Positions 2,522 through 18,135 of a stretch of 64,000 nucleotides of DNA are shown here, in pieces. The DNA comes from a bacterium. Lineage in GTDB: Bacteria > Myxococcota_A > Bradymonadia > UBA7976 > UBA1532. The first letter of the stretch is position 1. Each line of letters begins with the position of its first letter. Under the pieces are notes generated by a model that made no database searches, was not told the DNA's origin, and saw nothing but the letters and a program-made list of their open reading frames with translations. The stretch covers positions 1 through 64,000 of the forward strand of contig JAUHYW010000015.1 of the NCBI GenBank assembly GCA_030426085.1, in the 5' to 3' direction. Made by a program: the position numbers and the translations under genes.

Positions 2522-3424
2522 TTGAACGACAAACTCACCGAGCTGATCGAGCTGCTCGCCCTCGAGCGCATCGAGGAGAACCTGTTCCGCGGGCCGAGCC
2601 AGGATCTGGGCTGGGGCACCGTCTTCGGGGGGCAGGTGCTGGGGCAGGCGCTGTCGGCGGCGGCCCAGACGGTGCCGCCCGACCGGGTGGTGCACTCGCT
2701 GCACGCGTATTTTCTGCGGCCGGGCGCGGTCGATCGACCGGTGGTCTACGACGTCGACCGCATCCGCGACGGGCGCAGCTTCACGACCCGCCGGGTGGTG
2801 GCCATCCAGAAGGGGCGGCCCATCTTCAACCTCGCCGCGTCGTTCCAGGTCGAGGAGCCGGGGCTGGATCATCAGGCCGAGATGCCCGATGTGCCCCGCC
2901 CCGACGCCCTGAAGTCGGAGCAGGCGCTGGCCCGCCCCTTCGCCGATCGCATCCCGCCCCGCATGCGGGAGCGGCTCTTCGGGCCCCGCCCGATCGAGGC
3001 CCGCCCGGTCGATCCGATCAACCCCTTCGCCCCCGCAGCCCACCCCCCGGTCCGCCGGACGTGGTACCGGGCCAACGGCGAGCTGCCCGATGATCCGGCG
3101 CTGCATCGCTATCTGCTGGCCTACGCCAGCGACTTCGGCCTGCTGACGACCGCCCTGCGGCCCCACGGCATCTCGTGGGTCGCCCGCGATATGCAGGTGG
3201 CCAGCCTGGATCACGCGATGTGGTTCCACCGGCCGCTGCGGGTCGATCGCTGGCTGCTGCACGTCATGGAGAGCCCGTCGGCCAGCGGCGCCCGGGGGCT
3301 GGTGCGGGGGCAGTGGTTCGACGAGGAAGGGCGGCTGGTGGCCTCGACGGTGCAGGAGGGGCTCATCCGGCGGTGGTCGGCCCAGAAGCCGGCCGGGGCG
3401 CCGACCGGGGTGGCCGAGGCGTGA
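2522..3424 (+). CDS. tesB: Acyl-CoA thioesterase II
   Basis: A 300-aa protein matching TesB in length and pattern: two hotdog domains, with FGGQVLGQAL near residue 40 and HSLHAYFLRPG near 63-73. It hydrolyses acyl-CoA to free fatty acid and CoA in the cytoplasm. The catalytic triad of the E. coli enzyme (Asp, Thr, Gln) appears as Asp about 230 in ASLDHAMWFH, a Ser in place of Thr near SPSAS, and Gln in STVQEGLIR. The start is a TTG preceded by a GGGGGA stretch, and no ATG lies close by. The gene follows the metallo-hydrolase after 50 bases; both are hydrolases that may act on thioesters. Confidence 0.92.
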   Translation: MNDKLTELIELLALERIEENLFRGPSQDLGWGTVFGGQVLGQALSAAAQTVPPDRVVHSLHAYFLRPGAVDRPVVYDVDRIRDGRSFTTRRVVAIQKGRPIFNLAASFQVEEPGLDHQAEMPDVPRPDALKSEQALARPFADRIPPRMRERLFGPRPIEARPVDPINPFAPAAHPPVRRTWYRANGELPDDPALHRYLLAYASDFGLLTTALRPHGISWVARDMQVASLDHAMWFHRPLRVDRWLLHVMESPSASGARGLVRGQWFDEEGRLVASTVQEGLIRRWSAQKPAGAPTGVAEA

Positions 3425-3525: not shown

Positions 3526-4050
3526 ATGAAGCGGGACGACGGCGCCGGGCTCGACCGGCGCGGTTTCTTGTGCGGCATGGCCGCCTGCGGCTGCGCGGCG
3601 GCCCTGGGCGCCAGCGGCTGCACCATCGCCGAGGTCTACACCCAGACCGGGGCCGGCGAGCTGGCCTTCGACATCAACAGCGGTGAGTTCGCCGCCTTGC
3701 AGACGGTGGGCGAGACGGTGCCGGTCGATGTCGAGACCAGCGCCGATCCGGCGCCGGTGCTGCTCATCCGCAACGCCGAGGACAGCGTCATCGCCCTCGA
3801 GCGCATCTGCCCCCACACGCTGTGCGACATGACCGCGCCCATCGGGGTGTGGGATCAGCCGGCGCAGCAGCTCATCTGCATCTGCCACACGTCGATCTTC
3901 GCCACCGACGGGGCCCTCGTCTCGGGGCCGTCGCCCCGGGGGGTGGCGGCCTATCCGGTGGTGTTCGACCCGGCGACGGGTCAGGGCGTGGTGCGCATCG
4001 GCGGCGAGGCCGACGCGATGGCGCAGGCCCTGACCGGGGCCGGCCCGTGA
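3526..4050 (+). CDS. Exported Rieske [2Fe-2S] protein
   Basis: A protein of 174 aa. The N-terminus carries a twin-arginine-like sequence (DRRGFLCG, about residue 10) followed by a hydrophobic Ala/Cys-rich stretch. This suggests Tat export of a pre-folded cluster protein; the Cys in GASGC may also be lipidated. The Rieske ligands are present as C95-P-H97 and C118-I-C-H121, with DG and GPSPRG turns behind the second box. The start has a GGAGAGGA site 5-6 bases upstream. The stop overlaps the next ATG by one base, so it is coupled to the haem-motif barrel. An electron-transfer role is likely; no bc1 partner genes are nearby. Confidence 0.87.
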   Translation: MKRDDGAGLDRRGFLCGMAACGCAAALGASGCTIAEVYTQTGAGELAFDINSGEFAALQTVGETVPVDVETSADPAPVLLIRNAEDSVIALERICPHTLCDMTAPIGVWDQPAQQLICICHTSIFATDGALVSGPSPRGVAAYPVVFDPATGQGVVRIGGEADAMAQALTGAGP

Positions 4051-5321
4051 TGGGCCCCCGCTCGGTTCTGGCGTCGGCGCTGCTGGTGATGCTCGGCTTC
4101 TCCTGGCCCGGGTCGGCCGAGGCGGTGCCCCGCTTCTCGGTCACCGCCGGCTCGCCGTGCACGACGTGCCACGTCAACCCCACCGGCGCCGGCCTGCGCA
4201 ACGCGATCGGCTTCGAGTCGATGGACGATGTGGGCTTCGTGGGCTACCCCGGCACGCCGCACAACGCGCTGTTCGACGATCTGCTGTCGCTCGGCGCCGA
4301 TGTGCGCATCCAGGCGGTGCGGCTCGGGGCGCCGGTGAGCTCCACCGACGGGGACGATGTGCTGGTGCCCGATTACGTGGTGCTGCCGATGCAGATCCAG
4401 CCGTATGTCGGGCTCAACCCGGTCGACGGGCTGTGGGTCTACGGCAGCTATACGATGGGGCCCGAGACCATCGAGCGGGGCGAGGTGTGTGATCCGGTCT
4501 ACCCCGGGCAGAGCTGCTTCGACGCGGCGGTGCAGTATCAGCCGGGCGCGGCGTGGCCCACGCTGCGGGCGGGCATGATCCAGCCGAGCGTCGGCGTGCG
4601 CCGGGACGATCACACGATCTACATCCGGGGCGACGCCGCCGATCGCCGGGCCCCGGTCATCCCCCCCAACTACGCCGACTGGGGCGGCGAGCTGAGCTAT
4701 CAGCCGGTGTCGTGGTTCCGCAGCGAGCTGGGCGGGGTGGCGACGGCGAACCTCGAGGACGCCATCGACAACGGCATCCGCGAGGCGGCGCTGTGGCCGG
4801 TGGCGGCCAACGCCCGGGTGATGTTCCTGCCGCAGCTCGTCTTCGGCGGGCCGGACGAGGATCCGGGTGATGAGTTCGGCGACGACGAGTTCGGCGATGA
4901 CTTCGGGGACGACTTCGCCGCCGAGCCGGTCGAGCCGACGGTCATCAACACCTGGATCGGGGCGTCGGCCTTCGTCAGCGGGGACTTCCTGCGGGTCGAC
5001 GGCTTCGCCGCGGTGGGGCTGCACGGCGGCCTCGAGGTGCACGGCGAGGTGTCGTGGACCCGCCTCGACCGGGGCTACAGCATGCTCAACGGCCTGTTCG
5101 GCGCGAGCTGGGCGGTGCTCGAGCCGCTGGCCGTCGCCGCCCGCGTGGAGCGGGCCCACACCGACCTGGGCGATGGCTCCACGGCCACGGCGGTCCAGGT
5201 GGTCGCCGGGCTGGAGGTCTTCCCGGTGCCCTTCGTCGAGATCCGCCCTGAATATCGCCTCGTCCAGACCGACGCGTACCTGTTCGGCCAGCCGACGGTG
5301 CAGCTGCACCTCTTCTATTGA
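4050..5321 (+). CDS. Outer-membrane beta-barrel-like protein with N-terminal CxxCH haem motif
   Basis: A protein of 423 aa. A signal peptide (to about residue 25) precedes C37-T-T-C40-H41, a c-type haem-binding motif, followed by NPTGAGLRN. The rest shows alternating aromatic and glycine-rich segments typical of beta-strands and ends in Phe-Tyr, like an outer-membrane barrel. Residues near 265-290 form a very acidic DEFGDD-type repeat, probably an exposed loop that may bind metal. The ATG was chosen because it overlaps the upstream stop (TGATG). A longer frame starting at 3822 would overlap the Rieske gene. Covalent haem and the barrel are both inferred; neither is proven by sequence. Confidence 0.72.
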   Translation: MGPRSVLASALLVMLGFSWPGSAEAVPRFSVTAGSPCTTCHVNPTGAGLRNAIGFESMDDVGFVGYPGTPHNALFDDLLSLGADVRIQAVRLGAPVSSTDGDDVLVPDYVVLPMQIQPYVGLNPVDGLWVYGSYTMGPETIERGEVCDPVYPGQSCFDAAVQYQPGAAWPTLRAGMIQPSVGVRRDDHTIYIRGDAADRRAPVIPPNYADWGGELSYQPVSWFRSELGGVATANLEDAIDNGIREAALWPVAANARVMFLPQLVFGGPDEDPGDEFGDDEFGDDFGDDFAAEPVEPTVINTWIGASAFVSGDFLRVDGFAAVGLHGGLEVHGEVSWTRLDRGYSMLNGLFGASWAVLEPLAVAARVERAHTDLGDGSTATAVQVVAGLEVFPVPFVEIRPEYRLVQTDAYLFGQPTVQLHLFY

Positions 5322-5356
5322 CCGCCGGACAGCCACCCCATCGAGGAGAGAGTCCC

Positions 5357-5935
5357 GTGAAGCACATCCGCATCGCCCTCGCCGCCGCCGCCCTGCTCGC
5401 CTTCGCCGCGCCGGCCCTCGCCGCCCCCCAGACGCTCAACGTGAAGGGTCAGGCCAAGTGGGTCAGCGAGGCCCCGGTCGAGAAGATCGTGGGCACCGCC
5501 GACGGCGCCGGCGTCCTCACCGTCGATCTGGCCGATCCGAGCACCATCCGGGGCACCATCACGATGCCGGTCGCGTCGATGAAGTCGGGCAACGACCAGC
5601 GCGACGACCACCTCAAGGGCAGCGACTGGCTCGAGGCCGACAAGCACCCCACCATCGACTTCGCGATCGGCTCGGTGAAGGTCGTCGAGGGCCCCAAGGG
5701 CGACGCGGTCAAGGAGGCGAAGGTCGAGGTCACCGGCAAGTTCACCCTGCACGGGGTGACGACCGATCTGACGGCCCCGGCGACGCTCAAGTGGAAGGGC
5801 GACAAGGTCAAGATCGAGACCGCGTTCGTGGTGAAGCTGGCCGATTACAAGGTGGCCGGCAAGCAGGGCGTGGTGGGCGACAAGGTCGGCGAGACCATCG
5901 ACGTGTCGGTGGTGCTCAAGGGGATCGCCAAGTGA
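5357..5935 (+). CDS. YceI family periplasmic lipid-binding protein
   Basis: A protein of 192 aa including a signal peptide of about 22 residues ending ALAA. The mature part is a YceI-like lipocalin barrel: an N-terminal strand, D-P-S-T-I-R-G-T-I, then DDHLKGSDWLEADKHPTI, then FTLHGVTTDLT. YceI proteins bind long isoprenoid or amphipathic ligands, polyprenyl quinone being the classic case. The start is a GTG with GAGGAGAG upstream. The stop overlaps the next GTG by four bases. Its position after a Rieske protein and a haem-motif barrel makes a quinone-related role attractive but unproven. Confidence 0.9.
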   Translation: MKHIRIALAAAALLAFAAPALAAPQTLNVKGQAKWVSEAPVEKIVGTADGAGVLTVDLADPSTIRGTITMPVASMKSGNDQRDDHLKGSDWLEADKHPTIDFAIGSVKVVEGPKGDAVKEAKVEVTGKFTLHGVTTDLTAPATLKWKGDKVKIETAFVVKLADYKVAGKQGVVGDKVGETIDVSVVLKGIAK

Positions 5936-6261
5936 GGGCCGGGGCCGCCGTCTGCGTCGTCCTGGCCCTGGGCATCCTGGGCTATTGGGCCGCGACCGGC
6001 ATGCACTTCGCGACCCGCACGACGTTGCCGCCCGAGCCGCACCTGAGCTGCGCGGCCGCCGCCGATTGCGGCGAGGAGGGCGACGCGTGCGAGCAGGGCA
6101 AGTGCTTCGACGCCTTCGGTGACCCCAAGGCGGGCAAAGAGTGGCGCGAGGGCTACGAGCTGGGGCTGGCCGATCGGGCGGGCCCGGCGGCCGGCGGGCT
6201 GCTGCTGCTGGCGGGCATCCTGTTCTTCGTCGATCGCCGCAAGCGCCGAGCGGCGGGCTGA
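5932..6261 (+). CDS. Small two-span membrane protein with Cys-rich loop
   Basis: A protein of 109 aa with no family I recognise. It has a hydrophobic segment at about residues 4-21, a loop with four cysteines (40, 46, 53, 58; pattern C-x5-C-x6-C-x4-C), and a second hydrophobic segment near 86-100 followed by a DRRKRR tail. The topology would place the Cys loop in the periplasm and both ends in the cytoplasm. It starts with a GTG inside the upstream stop (GTGA overlap) and ends with TGATG into the SUI1-like gene, so it belongs to one coupled operon. Confidence 0.7.
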   Translation: MRAGAAVCVVLALGILGYWAATGMHFATRTTLPPEPHLSCAAAADCGEEGDACEQGKCFDAFGDPKAGKEWREGYELGLADRAGPAAGGLLLLAGILFFVDRRKRRAAG

Positions 6262-6668
6262 TGGGGCGCAAGAAGAAGGGTCGGGTGCAGGCGGACGGGT
6301 CGGGCTTCGGCGGCTCGCTGGGTGATCTGCTGCGGGCGCAGGGGCTGGCCCCGGACGCGGCGCCCACGCCGACCCCGGTGGACGCCGCCCCGTCCCCCGC
6401 CGGCCTCTCGGCGGATGATCTCTCGACGCTGCCCAAGCTGGTCGTGCGCCGCACCCGCAAGGGGCGCGGCGGGCGCACGGTGACTCTGATCGAGGGCATC
6501 GAGCCGCTGCCCGCGCCCGAGCGCGAGGCGCTGGCGGCCGCCGCCCGCAAGGCGCTGGGCGCGGGCGCCCGGGTCGAGGGTGAGTCGGTGGCGGTTCAGG
6601 GCGACCTGCGCGATCGGCTCGCCGACTGGCTGCGCGAACGCGGCGCGCGGCGGGTGGTCGTCGCCTGA
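6261..6668 (+). CDS. SUI1/eIF1-like translation factor (YciH family)
   Basis: A protein of 135 aa. After a basic N-terminus and a Pro/Ala-rich linker, residues about 55-135 match the SUI1 fold: VVRRTRKGRGGRTVTLIEGI, a helix, then a basic AARKALGAGARVEGESVAVQGD strand pair and a final helix ending RRVVV. Bacterial SUI1 proteins resemble eukaryotic eIF1 and may influence start-codon choice, but their physiological role is poorly defined. The ATG overlaps the preceding stop. Its presence in an operon of exported redox proteins is unexpected and may reflect only convenience of transcription. Confidence 0.85.
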   Translation: MGRKKKGRVQADGSGFGGSLGDLLRAQGLAPDAAPTPTPVDAAPSPAGLSADDLSTLPKLVVRRTRKGRGGRTVTLIEGIEPLPAPEREALAAAARKALGAGARVEGESVAVQGDLRDRLADWLRERGARRVVVA

Positions 6669-14655: not shown

Positions 14656-17100
14656 TCAGCGGGGCTCGGGGGCCACGCATTCGGTGATCCAGCCGCAGCG
14701 GCCGGCGGCGTCGGGCTCACACGTCTGGCGGGGCGGGGTGCCGTCGTCGCACGGCAGCGGGCGCGGGGCGGGGCCGCACGCCTCGGCCCCGCACTGCGGA
14801 GCGGGCTCGACGCAGGCCGCCGCGCAGGCCTCGGCGGTCTCGAAGTTGTTGGCGTTGCCCCCGCAGCCGCCGTAGACGAAGACCCGGCACTCGCCGGCCG
14901 CGGCGTCGTAGTACCACCGCCGGAACGCCGCCTGGCAGTCGCCGGCCTCGGGGGGCAGCTCGCAGGCATTCGCCCGGCACTCGCCCTCGTGGGCCACCCG
15001 GACCCCGGCGCAGCCGGCCTCGCAGTCGTTGCCGTAGGTCACCCCATCGACCCCGCACACCGGGGCCCACACATCGGGGCAGACGCAGGGCTCCTCGCAC
15101 TGCCCGATCAGCCAGCCGCACCGCCCGTCGTCGAGCGGCGCGCACTCGACCGTCGGGCCGTTCCCGTCGGGGCACGGCGCCACCGGCGGCGGCGGCCCAC
15201 AGGCGTCGGCGGCGCACTCGCCCGGAGGCGGGCACTCGCCCACCTGCCATCGGCACACCCCGTCGGCCCCCGCCACGCAGACCTGCTCGGGCAGGCTGCC
15301 GTCGGGGCACACCGCGACCAGGAACGGCGCCGCCCCGCAGGCCTCGGGCGCGCACTCGCCCACCTCGCCGCACTCGCCCTCGTGGGCCACCCGGACCCCG
15401 GCGCACTCGGCCTCGCACGCGTTGCCGTAGGTCATGCCGTCGACCCCGCACACCGGGGCCCACAGGTCGAAGCAGGCGCAGTCGCCGGGGCACTCGCGGA
15501 GCTGCCACCCGCACGCGCCGTCCGCGTCCCGCTGGCAGACGGGGCCGCCGACGCTGCCGTCGGGGCACTCGAAGTTGGGCGCGCCGGGCGCCGGACCGCA
15601 CTCGTCGGCGGGGCACGCCGCGGGGCACTCGCCGATCTGCCAGCCGCACATCCCGGCGGCGTCGCGCACACACATCTGCGGCGGGGGCGTCCCGTCGGGG
15701 CAGACCATGGCCTGGAACGGCGACGGCCCGCATTCGTCCTCGGCGCACTCGCCCGGCTCGTCCCGACACGCCCCCTCGTAGGCCACCGCGACCCCGGCGC
15801 AGCGGGCCGAGCACGGGTTGTCGTACGTCCGCCCGTCCACCCCGCACACCGGGGCCCAGATCTCGCCGCACACGCACTCGCCGGGGCACTCGCCCAGCAC
15901 CCAGCCGCACACCCCGTCCGCCGCGCGCACGCACATCTGCGGCGGCGGGGTCCCGTCGGGGCACAGCTCCCGCTGGAACGGCGACGGCCCGCACTCGTCC
16001 TCGGCGCACTCGCCGGGCACATCCCGGCACTCGCCTTCATGGGCCACCTCGACCCCCGCGCAGCGGGCCGAGCACGGGTTGTCGTACGTCCGCCCGTCCA
16101 CCCCGCACACCGGGGACCGGATCTCGCCGCACACGCACTCGCCGGGGCACTCGCCCAGCACCCAGCCGCAGGCGCCGTCCGCCCCGCGCACGCACATCTG
16201 CGGCGGCGGGGTCCCGTCGGGGCACAGCGCCCGCTGGAACGGCGACGGCCCGCACTCGTCCTCGGCGCACTCGCCCGGCGCGTCCCGGCACTCGCCTTCG
16301 TAGGCCGCCTCGACCCCGGCGCAGCGGGCCTCGCAGGCGTTGCCGTAGGTCACCCCGTCGACCCCGCACACCGGCGCGTAGACGTCCTCGCAGACGCAGT
16401 CGTCGGCGCACTCGCCCACCGCCCAGGCGCACACCCCGTCGGCGCCCTGACAGCGCATCGGCGGGGCGTCGCCGTCGGGGCACGGCTCCACCCGCGGGCG
16501 GGGGCCGCAGTCGACCTCCCGGCACTCGCGCGGCGCGTCGCGGCACTCGCCCTCATGAGCCGCCTCGACCCCGGCGCAGCGGGCCTCGCAGGCGTTGCCG
16601 TAGGTCTCCCCGTCGACCCCGCACACCGGCGCGTAGGCGTCGTCGCACGCGCAGACGTCGGGGCACTCGCCGAGGCGCCAGCCACAGGCGCCGTCATCGC
16701 CCCGCTCGCACGACTGCGGCGGCGGGCTGCCGTCGGGGCACGCCTCCCGCTGGAAGGGCGACGGGCCGCACTCGTCCTCGGCGCACTCGCCCGGCGCGTC
16801 CCGGCACTCGCCCTCGTGGGCCACCTCGACCCCGGCGCACCCGGCGGCGCAGGCGCTGGCGTGGGTCACCCCGTCGGCCCCGCACACCGGATCGCCGTCG
16901 GGGCACTCGCAGCCGGCCGCGACGACGCACACGCCGTCCACGCAGCGCTCGCCCTCCGCGCAGGCGTCGTCGCCGCGACACCCCGGCGGGGCGCTGGCGT
17001 CGGGCATGTCGCCGACCTCCTCGTCGTTCTCGAACGGGCAGCCGGTCAGCGTCGCGCCGACGAGCATGCTCAACAGCAGCAGGGATCTCGTCCGGTCCAT
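14656..17100 (-). CDS. Lipoprotein with seven Kazal domains, one Kunitz domain and a repeated Cys module
   Basis: A protein of 814 aa with lipobox LTGC at 18-21. It contains seven Kazal-type protease-inhibitor domains (each close to PVCGVDGxTYxNxC...C...HEGEC; the first at about 64-99, the second at about 150-186) and one Kunitz/BPTI domain near residues 710-765 (FRRWYYD, YGGCGGNANNF). Interleaved are about nine copies of another roughly 37-residue module, CGPxPF...CPDGxPPxxxC...DGxCGWxxGEC, which I do not recognise. The protein is probably displayed on the outer surface and inhibits serine proteases, either the cell's own or those of prey. GGAGG sits five bases before the ATG. The DNA repeats have a period near 260 bp. 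Confidence 0.9.
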   Translation of the reverse strand: MDRTRSLLLLSMLVGATLTGCPFENDEEVGDMPDASAPPGCRGDDACAEGERCVDGVCVVAAGCECPDGDPVCGADGVTHASACAAGCAGVEVAHEGECRDAPGECAEDECGPSPFQREACPDGSPPPQSCERGDDGACGWRLGECPDVCACDDAYAPVCGVDGETYGNACEARCAGVEAAHEGECRDAPRECREVDCGPRPRVEPCPDGDAPPMRCQGADGVCAWAVGECADDCVCEDVYAPVCGVDGVTYGNACEARCAGVEAAYEGECRDAPGECAEDECGPSPFQRALCPDGTPPPQMCVRGADGACGWVLGECPGECVCGEIRSPVCGVDGRTYDNPCSARCAGVEVAHEGECRDVPGECAEDECGPSPFQRELCPDGTPPPQMCVRAADGVCGWVLGECPGECVCGEIWAPVCGVDGRTYDNPCSARCAGVAVAYEGACRDEPGECAEDECGPSPFQAMVCPDGTPPPQMCVRDAAGMCGWQIGECPAACPADECGPAPGAPNFECPDGSVGGPVCQRDADGACGWQLRECPGDCACFDLWAPVCGVDGMTYGNACEAECAGVRVAHEGECGEVGECAPEACGAAPFLVAVCPDGSLPEQVCVAGADGVCRWQVGECPPPGECAADACGPPPPVAPCPDGNGPTVECAPLDDGRCGWLIGQCEEPCVCPDVWAPVCGVDGVTYGNDCEAGCAGVRVAHEGECRANACELPPEAGDCQAAFRRWYYDAAAGECRVFVYGGCGGNANNFETAEACAAACVEPAPQCGAEACGPAPRPLPCDDGTPPRQTCEPDAAGRCGWITECVAPEPR
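15790..16330 (-). repeat. About 260-bp tandem repeats inside the inhibitor gene
   Basis: Two successive units (from about 15810 and about 16070) are almost identical over long stretches, including the segment encoding the GRTYDNPCSAR Kazal core. Each unit encodes one Kazal domain plus one CGPSPF-type module, about 87 codons. Such identity allows expansion or contraction by recombination. Confidence 0.8.
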
Positions 17101-17213
17101 GTCTTCCTCCGGGCCGCGCGGGGTTCGGCGCGCGGTGCACGGGTGATTGCCCGCCCCCGCCGCGATCCGTCACTTTTTCTCGGGCGCGCTCGAAGCCCGG
17201 GGCGGGGGCCGGT

Positions 17214-17219
17214 TATGAT
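17214..17219 (+). promoter_or_regulatory. -10-like box TATGAT before a start codon
   Basis: TATGAT ends eight bases before the ATG at 17227 and there is no Shine-Dalgarno sequence in between. A transcript starting at or near the ATG is likely. The box itself overlaps two in-frame ATGs (17215, 17218) that might be mistaken for the start. Confidence 0.45.
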
Positions 17220-17226
17220 GGCGCCG

Positions 17227-18135
17227 ATGTCGCCCACCGTCCGTCCGTCCATCGCCGCCTGCGCCCTCTCCCTCGCGCTCGCCCCGGCAGCCCCGGCCCT
17301 CGCCGCCGACGCGGTCGATGGGGCGGTGCTCGAGGCGTTCAACGCCGTCGTCCGCGAGGTGGGCGACGCCGAGGCCGACCCCGCCCGGGCCATCGAGCTG
17401 TACGAGCGGGCGTTGCTCGACGGCCCCGCCCGGGGCTTCGGCCGGCTGCACCTGCGCATCGCCCACCTGCACCGCGCCGCCGGGCGCAACGCCGAGGCGG
17501 CCCACCACTTCGACGCGTGCCTCGCCGACGAGCGGGTCGATCCGATCGACCGCCAGTTCATCTGCGAGCGGGGGCTCGAGCAGGTCACCGCCCCCCTGAC
17601 CATCGAGGGGCTGCCCGCGGGCGGCGCCGTCCGGATCATCGAGCCCGCGGCCGCCGCCGGGGTGCACCTCAGCGGGGCCCGGGTCCCGCGGGGCGAGCTG
17701 CGGGTCGTCGTCGAGGCGCCGGGGCGGGTCGCCGAGCGCTCGACGATCACCATCGACGGGCCGACGCTGTGGACCGCCCGGGTCGGGCTCGACGCCCCCG
17801 ACGGCCCGCTGGTGCCCGACGGCTTCGTCGAGTCGCCGGTCGAGCCGGTCGACCCCGACGGCCTGCCCCGCTGGCCGGGCTACGTGGCCGGCGGCCTGGG
17901 GGTCGCGCTGGTCGGCGCCGGACTCATCGTGGGGGTCCAGAACCGGGACACGCTGGCCGACATCCGCGGGCGCCAGTCCGACGGGCTGTGCGGGGCCGAC
18001 CGCTGCGCCGGCGACCTGTCCTCGGCCGAGAGCCGGGCCGGGCTGGCCGACGGCATGTGGATCGGCGGCGCAGCGCTGGCCGCGGGCGGGGTCGTGTGGT
18101 GGCTGCTGACCGGCGACCAGGGCGGCCGCTGGTGA
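17227..18135 (+). CDS. Exported TPR-like protein with C-terminal membrane anchor
   Basis: A protein of 302 aa. A signal peptide ends near APALAAD. Residues about 35-120 form helical repeats (AIELYERALLDGPARGFGRLHLRIAH...RNAEAAHHFDACL) of TPR character. A beta-rich PEGA-like segment follows (LTIEGLPAGGAVRI...RGELRVVVEAPG). Two hydrophobic helices near the C-terminus flank a short loop with two cysteines. This resembles other myxobacterial TPR/PEGA envelope proteins of unknown role. The start at 17227 assumes a leaderless transcript; 17215 is the alternative. It overlaps the following gene by four bases (GTGA). Confidence 0.7.
   Translation: MSPTVRPSIAACALSLALAPAAPALAADAVDGAVLEAFNAVVREVGDAEADPARAIELYERALLDGPARGFGRLHLRIAHLHRAAGRNAEAAHHFDACLADERVDPIDRQFICERGLEQVTAPLTIEGLPAGGAVRIIEPAAAAGVHLSGARVPRGELRVVVEAPGRVAERSTITIDGPTLWTARVGLDAPDGPLVPDGFVESPVEPVDPDGLPRWPGYVAGGLGVALVGAGLIVGVQNRDTLADIRGRQSDGLCGADRCAGDLSSAESRAGLADGMWIGGAALAAGGVVWWLLTGDQGGRW

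Follow-up and report, generated by a model that had tools for sequence, protein, structure and literature searches.

Four adjacent genes near the start of a 64,000-nucleotide (nt) stretch of a myxococcotal genome (GCA_030426085.1, contig JAUHYW010000015.1, positions 1 to 64,000, forward strand; hereafter the window) probably encode an outer-membrane electron-transfer module in which a cytochrome-porin with a single haem is coupled to a Rieske protein. All on the plus strand, they comprise a gene for a Rieske [2Fe-2S] protein of 174 amino acids (aa; 3526..4050), one for a putative single-haem cytochrome-porin of 423 aa with a signal peptide, one CxxCH motif and a putative barrel (4050..5321), one for a YceI-family periplasmic lipocalin-like protein of 192 aa (GTG start; 5357..5935), and one for a small membrane protein of 109 aa, recognised with our own profile, in which two hydrophobic segments flank a loop (GTG start; 5932..6261). 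An earlier annotation made from the sequence alone (the original prediction) had described overlapping or nearly abutting genes at 3526-6668, and re-reading of the open reading frames (ORFs) showed its coordinates and frames to be correct. The TGA of the Rieske gene and the ATG of the barrel gene overlap by 1 nt (position 4050), the YceI gene follows the barrel gene after 35 nt, and the YceI and membrane protein genes overlap by 4 nt.

This gene set recurs in two phyla. Of 57 genomes related to that of the window, 28 encode a relative of the 423-aa protein. At an E-value of 1e-10, such relatives were also detected in 52 of 377 genomes of the window's phylum and in 65 of the 395 genomes that share a phylum with a Kapaibacterium record (Bacteroidota), a different phylum in the genome set. 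We searched the neighbourhoods of 57 barrel loci, which are a subset of all barrel matches, picked for their barrel score and not independent of one another (some from sister genera, two from one genome), with hidden Markov models (HMMs) built from our own alignments. A Rieske gene lay beside the barrel gene at 49 of the 57 loci, a small membrane protein gene at 45 and a YceI gene at 39; all four genes occurred together at 34 loci and three of the four at 12. Loci cut by contig ends (L076, L077, L081) were counted as being without the missing genes, L102 and L103 were excluded as repeats of L037 and L036, and coverage of neighbours did not extend to G015, G038, G045, G049, G050 and G073 (contig-edge or unfetched, Myxococcota side) or to G183. 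The genome of L036 (G377), whose record is titled Bradyrhizobiaceae, groups in the phylum of Kapaibacterium G378, so that this title looks misassigned.

All 142 partner matches lay in the same orientation as the barrel gene closest to them, and when all neighbours were clustered without HMMs, the next commonest cluster was present at eight of the 57 loci. Gene order varied, including Rieske-barrel-YceI-membrane protein, YceI-membrane protein-Rieske-barrel, YceI-Rieske-barrel-membrane protein and barrel-membrane protein-YceI-Rieske. As a negative control, no partner genes were found near four distant barrel relatives (L054, L085, L086, L123). Because the window's genome holds only eight Rieske-family matches in 10.1 Mb, chance adjacency of the Rieske and barrel genes is very unlikely. 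The gene-neighbour analysis suggested in the original prediction thus supports the view that these neighbours are a genuine, conserved module of redox-looking character. Our literature searches, whose coverage leaves out most subscription journals, returned no description of a gene set of Rieske, YceI and cytochrome-porin.

The haem motif of the 423-aa protein is invariant in all relatives whose N-terminus is available. Of 65 barrel rows, 64 show the CxxCH that the window protein carries once (residues 37-41; codons at 4158..4172); the remaining one, L081, is cut by a contig end. In an alignment of 57 sequences, to which the window and two L121 copies belong, but not L054, L085, L086, L102, L103, L077, L081 or the second L049 barrel, C37, C40, H41, M114, H188 and H420 were invariant (57/57), with no other invariant His, Met or Cys; Asp187 was invariant as well. 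Loss of CxxCH in orthologues, which the original prediction had named as grounds for giving up its proposal, was therefore not seen among the aligned members. A histidine at position -3 (the fourth residue from the end), His420 in the window, was present in 64 of 64 barrel relatives, distant ones included, and is possibly the second axial haem ligand. The window's genome also encodes cytochrome c maturation homologues. That the protein is instead an ordinary substrate porin, its CxxCH holding a disulfide or a metal and its gene lying near unrelated envelope genes, would suit a haem read from a sequence motif as well as L044 and L045, where the barrel stands alone. We consider this very improbable given the invariance of CxxCH including its His, the c-type haem maturation genes, the Rieske gene co-located at 49 of 57 loci, and the cytochrome fusions or neighbours described below.

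Proteins with two haem motifs also occur among the relatives. A second barrel-like protein of the same genome (G000, contig C15, about 16400-17990; L055) has two CxxCH along with DDHT and a His at position -3, which suggests a wider superfamily. At L049:7696-9048, a two-CxxCH barrel relative lies directly downstream of a four-gene module.

The C-terminus of the barrel protein points to the outer membrane. The window protein ends in QLHLFY, and the last residue of 64 barrel sequences is nearly always aromatic (Y in 41, F in 18, L in 4, H in 1), positions -2, -4 and -6 being almost wholly hydrophobic and position -5 being Gln in 60. The last strand of an outer-membrane protein is expected to show such a residue alternation (the beta-signal), and this alternation would place His420 inside the pore near its periplasmic rim. 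In the published Cyc2 model (PMC8406198), the N-terminal haem plug is likewise expected near the periplasmic rim of the pore. OMP_b-brl was matched by six of 19 orthologues (best 8e-7), and orthologues also matched BBP2. A low-confidence AlphaFold model, the second of two, contained about 18 strands and, in its C-terminal half, a meander, and Foldseek with this poor model returned general porins as weak top matches (E 1.7e-5, template modelling score about 0.33). Hydropathy autocorrelation of the profile revealed weak alternation (lag 1, -0.15; lag 2, +0.17; standard deviation of shuffles 0.05-0.06), whose lag-2 component was missing from the window sequence taken alone. This measure does not discriminate, since alternation is stronger in the soluble beta protein YceI. 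Sequence searches of the PDB with the barrel yielded nothing useful, and a scan of viral contigs added no further usable barrel relatives. The C-terminus, the Pfam matches of orthologues and the Foldseek porins thus point to the outer-membrane barrel of the original prediction, both AlphaFold models being of low confidence; the 423-aa protein would be an outer-membrane beta-barrel with its haem at the periplasmic side, strand number and haem position being predicted.

The Rieske protein, described in the original prediction as of the twin-arginine translocation (Tat) type, indeed carries a twin-arginine signal, together with a lipobox-like cysteine. It passed the Pfam domain test (PF00355, E 3e-10; 40.2 bits versus a gathering cut-off of 20.3) with the cluster ligands present in CPH..C and CxCH (CICH) boxes of the bc1/b6f type. 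Among the Rieske ORFs of the loci, 50 of 56 have the RR pair and 47 of 56 have both RR and a lipobox-like cysteine (own patterns), and by sequence most of these proteins would be Tat lipoproteins. Five Rieske ORFs failed our ligand pattern, three of which keep the ligands on reading. The closest solved relatives of the window protein are b6f Rieske subunits (E 1e-6), with which, as with those of bc1, it shares the domain and the CxH..C and CxCH boxes; unlike them it has a lipobox-bearing signal instead of a signal anchor, and no cytochrome b gene lies beside its gene. Assignment as a bc1/b6f subunit was rejected by NCBIfam (29.7 bits versus a cut-off of 250, and 21.9 versus 97.4). At two loci the Rieske domain is fused to a cytochrome c domain (L040 and L041; Cytochrom_C 8e-12 and 5e-12), and L043 and L082-L084 have two Rieske domains or genes.

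The original prediction called a haem on a barrel uncommon; uncommon it is, but Cyc2 is a published precedent (PMC8406198), and the DNA form of the Cyc2 motif matched 71 of 395 genomes of the Kapaibacterium phylum set, often two or three times per genome. We therefore compared the barrel with Cyc2, reading 20 Cyc2-motif proteins (410-458 aa, one CxxCH each). Both kinds share a signal peptide, one CxxCH near the N-terminus, a porin-like remainder, similar length and AxPxF before the haem motif, and the window protein, with one CxxCH in 423 aa, falls in the range given for Cyc2 (a single CxxCH and at least 365 aa). Profile comparison of the family with the 20 proteins gave a probability of 97.7 with E 2.5e-12 when the full length was used and one of 76.7 with E 2.1e-5 for the barrel part alone, with reversed controls at E 0.3-0.4. 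Cyc2 is further characterised by a 16-stranded porin domain, with which the putative barrel can be compared through its low-confidence models, the OMP matches of six of 19 orthologues and the profile match of the barrel parts. In contrast, AxPxFAR[QK][TY] upstream of CxxCH, stated in PMC8406198 to be unique to Cyc2, occurred in 0 of 65 barrel rows. The Cyc2 PxL motif, four residues after CxxCH, is missing from the window protein (CHVNPTGAGL), where the P lies at a distance of three residues from CxxCH and precedes T-G instead of x-L. Conversely, the His at -3 (0 of 20) and the DDHT motif of the barrel family were not seen in the Cyc2-motif proteins, and no match to the Rieske, YceI or membrane protein HMMs was obtained in the 20 Cyc2 loci (about 3 kb each), the partners of Cyc2 being Cyc1-type cytochromes. 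The significant profile match combined with the missing motif makes the barrel a remote relative of Cyc2 that fails the defining motif, and we did not file it as Cyc2.

This relationship bears on whether the module is a Cyc2-type oxidase of iron or another dissolved metal, in which Fe(II) would enter the pore and reduce the haem, with electrons passing to the Rieske protein instead of Cyc1. The shared architecture and the profile match favour such an oxidase, and the invariant Asp187, His188 and His420 could bind a metal. Besides the motif differences, no iron-oxidation partner genes were recognised, and since Rieske proteins elsewhere are high-potential quinol oxidants, the opposite flow is equally plausible; overall we regard a metal oxidase as unlikely.

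The YceI assignment of the original prediction was confirmed by Pfam (PF04264, E 3e-27; 96.3 bits versus a gathering cut-off of 23.7), and the solved relatives of the window protein are YceI and polyisoprenoid-binding proteins. By analogy with its relatives, for which this is known, the window protein may bind an isoprenoid quinone, and its role in the module is perhaps that of an accessory quinone carrier supplying or withdrawing electrons. Of the three partners it varies most in presence, being absent from 18 of 57 loci compared to eight for Rieske. The small membrane protein matched no Pfam family above a cut-off. Its presence at 45 loci bears out the membrane protein of the original prediction, but the cysteines of the four-Cys loop emphasised there, although present in the window, are not conserved in the family, and the loop was dropped as a cofactor site. 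An acidic DxFGD motif occurs both in an insert of the barrel (DEFGDDEFGDD; window 4866-4920) and in the loop of many small membrane proteins (DDFGD; window 6115-6130).

YceI lipocalins bind ubiquinone-8 and, together with a co-transcribed b561, protect against lipid peroxidation (PMC9113575). On the model of BcnA and the cytochrome b561 LcoA of Burkholderia, the genes could thus form an envelope antioxidant system, in which YceI quinol quenches lipid peroxyl radicals while the Rieske protein, the haem barrel and the membrane protein recycle electrons. Like BcnA-LcoA, the module ties a YceI-family protein to a redox membrane partner, and at L037 a di-haem peroxidase gene (CCP_MauG, 4e-50) lies between the YceI and Rieske genes. 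BcnA-LcoA, however, is without a Rieske protein or haem barrel and has a b561 as partner, whereas no b561 was recognised by Pfam in the window module and one was found near L122 only. YceI is also lost more often than Rieske, and the multihaem neighbours described next suggest a respiration-like electron flow, so that an antioxidant role appears improbable.

At three loci (L120, L121, L122) a lipoprotein with five to six CxxCH is encoded directly upstream of the barrel and a Rieske protein directly downstream. This lipoprotein scores over the Pfam cut-off for an MtrC/MtrF-like domain in L120 and L122 and stays under it in L121, and in L120 and L122 a small cytochrome c gene lies beyond the Rieske gene. 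L122 adds a 13-CxxCH protein and a b561-type cytochrome, so that L122:3318-9057 holds in a single run the barrel, Rieske protein, small cytochrome c, 6-CxxCH lipoprotein, 13-CxxCH protein and b561-type cytochrome, possibly a complete extracellular electron route. Several Bacteroidota-side loci have single-haem lipoproteins beside the barrel (cluster of eight). The window module contains no multihaem gene, and among the loci inspected for CxxCH counts such genes adjoin the barrel only in L120-L122.

The module resembles the porin-cytochrome (Pcc)/MtrCAB systems in combining an outer-membrane barrel with c-type haem, and at L120-L122 a multihaem lipoprotein adjoins the barrel as in Pcc. It differs in that its putative barrel, of about 400 aa, would bear its own single haem and have as periplasmic partner a Rieske protein rather than a multihaem cytochrome; Rieske is not mentioned in the abstract and consulted passages of the Pcc paper (PMC4245776). 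The Geobacter ext cluster (extHIJKLMNOPQS), as described in the consulted passages of PMC5877670, likewise unites a Rieske protein (ExtO), a porin-like protein (ExtI) and c-type cytochromes. There, ExtI has a single cysteine and therefore no CxxCH, ExtO is paired with an inner-membrane cytochrome b, and YceI is not named.

We propose that the Rieske protein would be exported by Tat, lipid-anchored, and exchange electrons on the periplasmic side with the single c-type haem at the N-terminus of the barrel. This haem would sit where the pore opens to the periplasm, His420 possibly being its second axial ligand. It would meet a donor or acceptor that either comes into the pore or is fixed at the outer face, the latter perhaps being a multihaem lipoprotein of the surface in some lineages. 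YceI and the membrane protein with its two helices would be accessory. Electrons would pass between the Rieske centre and the haem, the sequence telling no direction, and the quinone-to-outside flow of the original prediction is hypothetical. A more specific version is a quinone-linked outer-membrane redox enzyme, in which quinol is ferried through the periplasm by YceI and oxidised, in the manner of bc1, by a Rieske protein anchored in the outer membrane, and the barrel haem, ligated by the CxxCH His and the C-terminal His, delivers electrons outside; we consider it possible, if doubtful, and if true it would be a stripped-down bc1-like chain at the outer membrane.

Several observations weigh against the electron-transfer module. 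One haem cannot span the membrane, and the pore must therefore admit a substrate or an unseen partner. The window barrel protein matched no Pfam family, and two AlphaFold models were poor (mean predicted local distance difference test scores of 39 and 40) because each was built from only four sequences. In L044 and L045 the barrel has no partner at all, and L073, L109, L110 and L123 are without Rieske though sequence is present on both sides; one Rieske copy in L107 has lost its ligands and the Rieske of L106 is altered. Finally, the distance matrices of barrel and partners correlate (r about 0.8), but plain vertical descent would also yield such correlations, from which co-evolution is not separable.

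A fifth gene, at 6261..6668 (plus strand, 135 aa, ATG start), overlaps the membrane protein gene by 1 nt, so that three of the four junctions among the five window ORFs are overlaps. The original prediction had counted it in the set, but Pfam identifies it as a SUI1/YciH-type translation factor gene (PF01253, E 3e-11). Like a kinase gene, it accompanies the module only within the same genus (L038/L035), and we judged it to lie outside. An NCBIfam scan of the window proteins agreed with the Pfam calls, and a promoter and terminator scan returned weak consensus matches and nothing stronger. An acyl-CoA thioesterase gene adjoins the module at window 2522-3424 and at L039:5269-6147 (60% identity), on different sides and strands.

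To our knowledge, the electron routes across the outer membrane known so far are long multihaem wires or Cyc2. If the proposed module is real, a pair of Rieske protein and single-haem porin in two phyla would add to the organisms suspected of electron exchange with the environment. An N-terminal CxxCH, a C-terminal His at -3 and a Rieske neighbour could together serve as a marker for such organisms, and the module would allow a clean test of the way in which a barrel makes use of a single haem.

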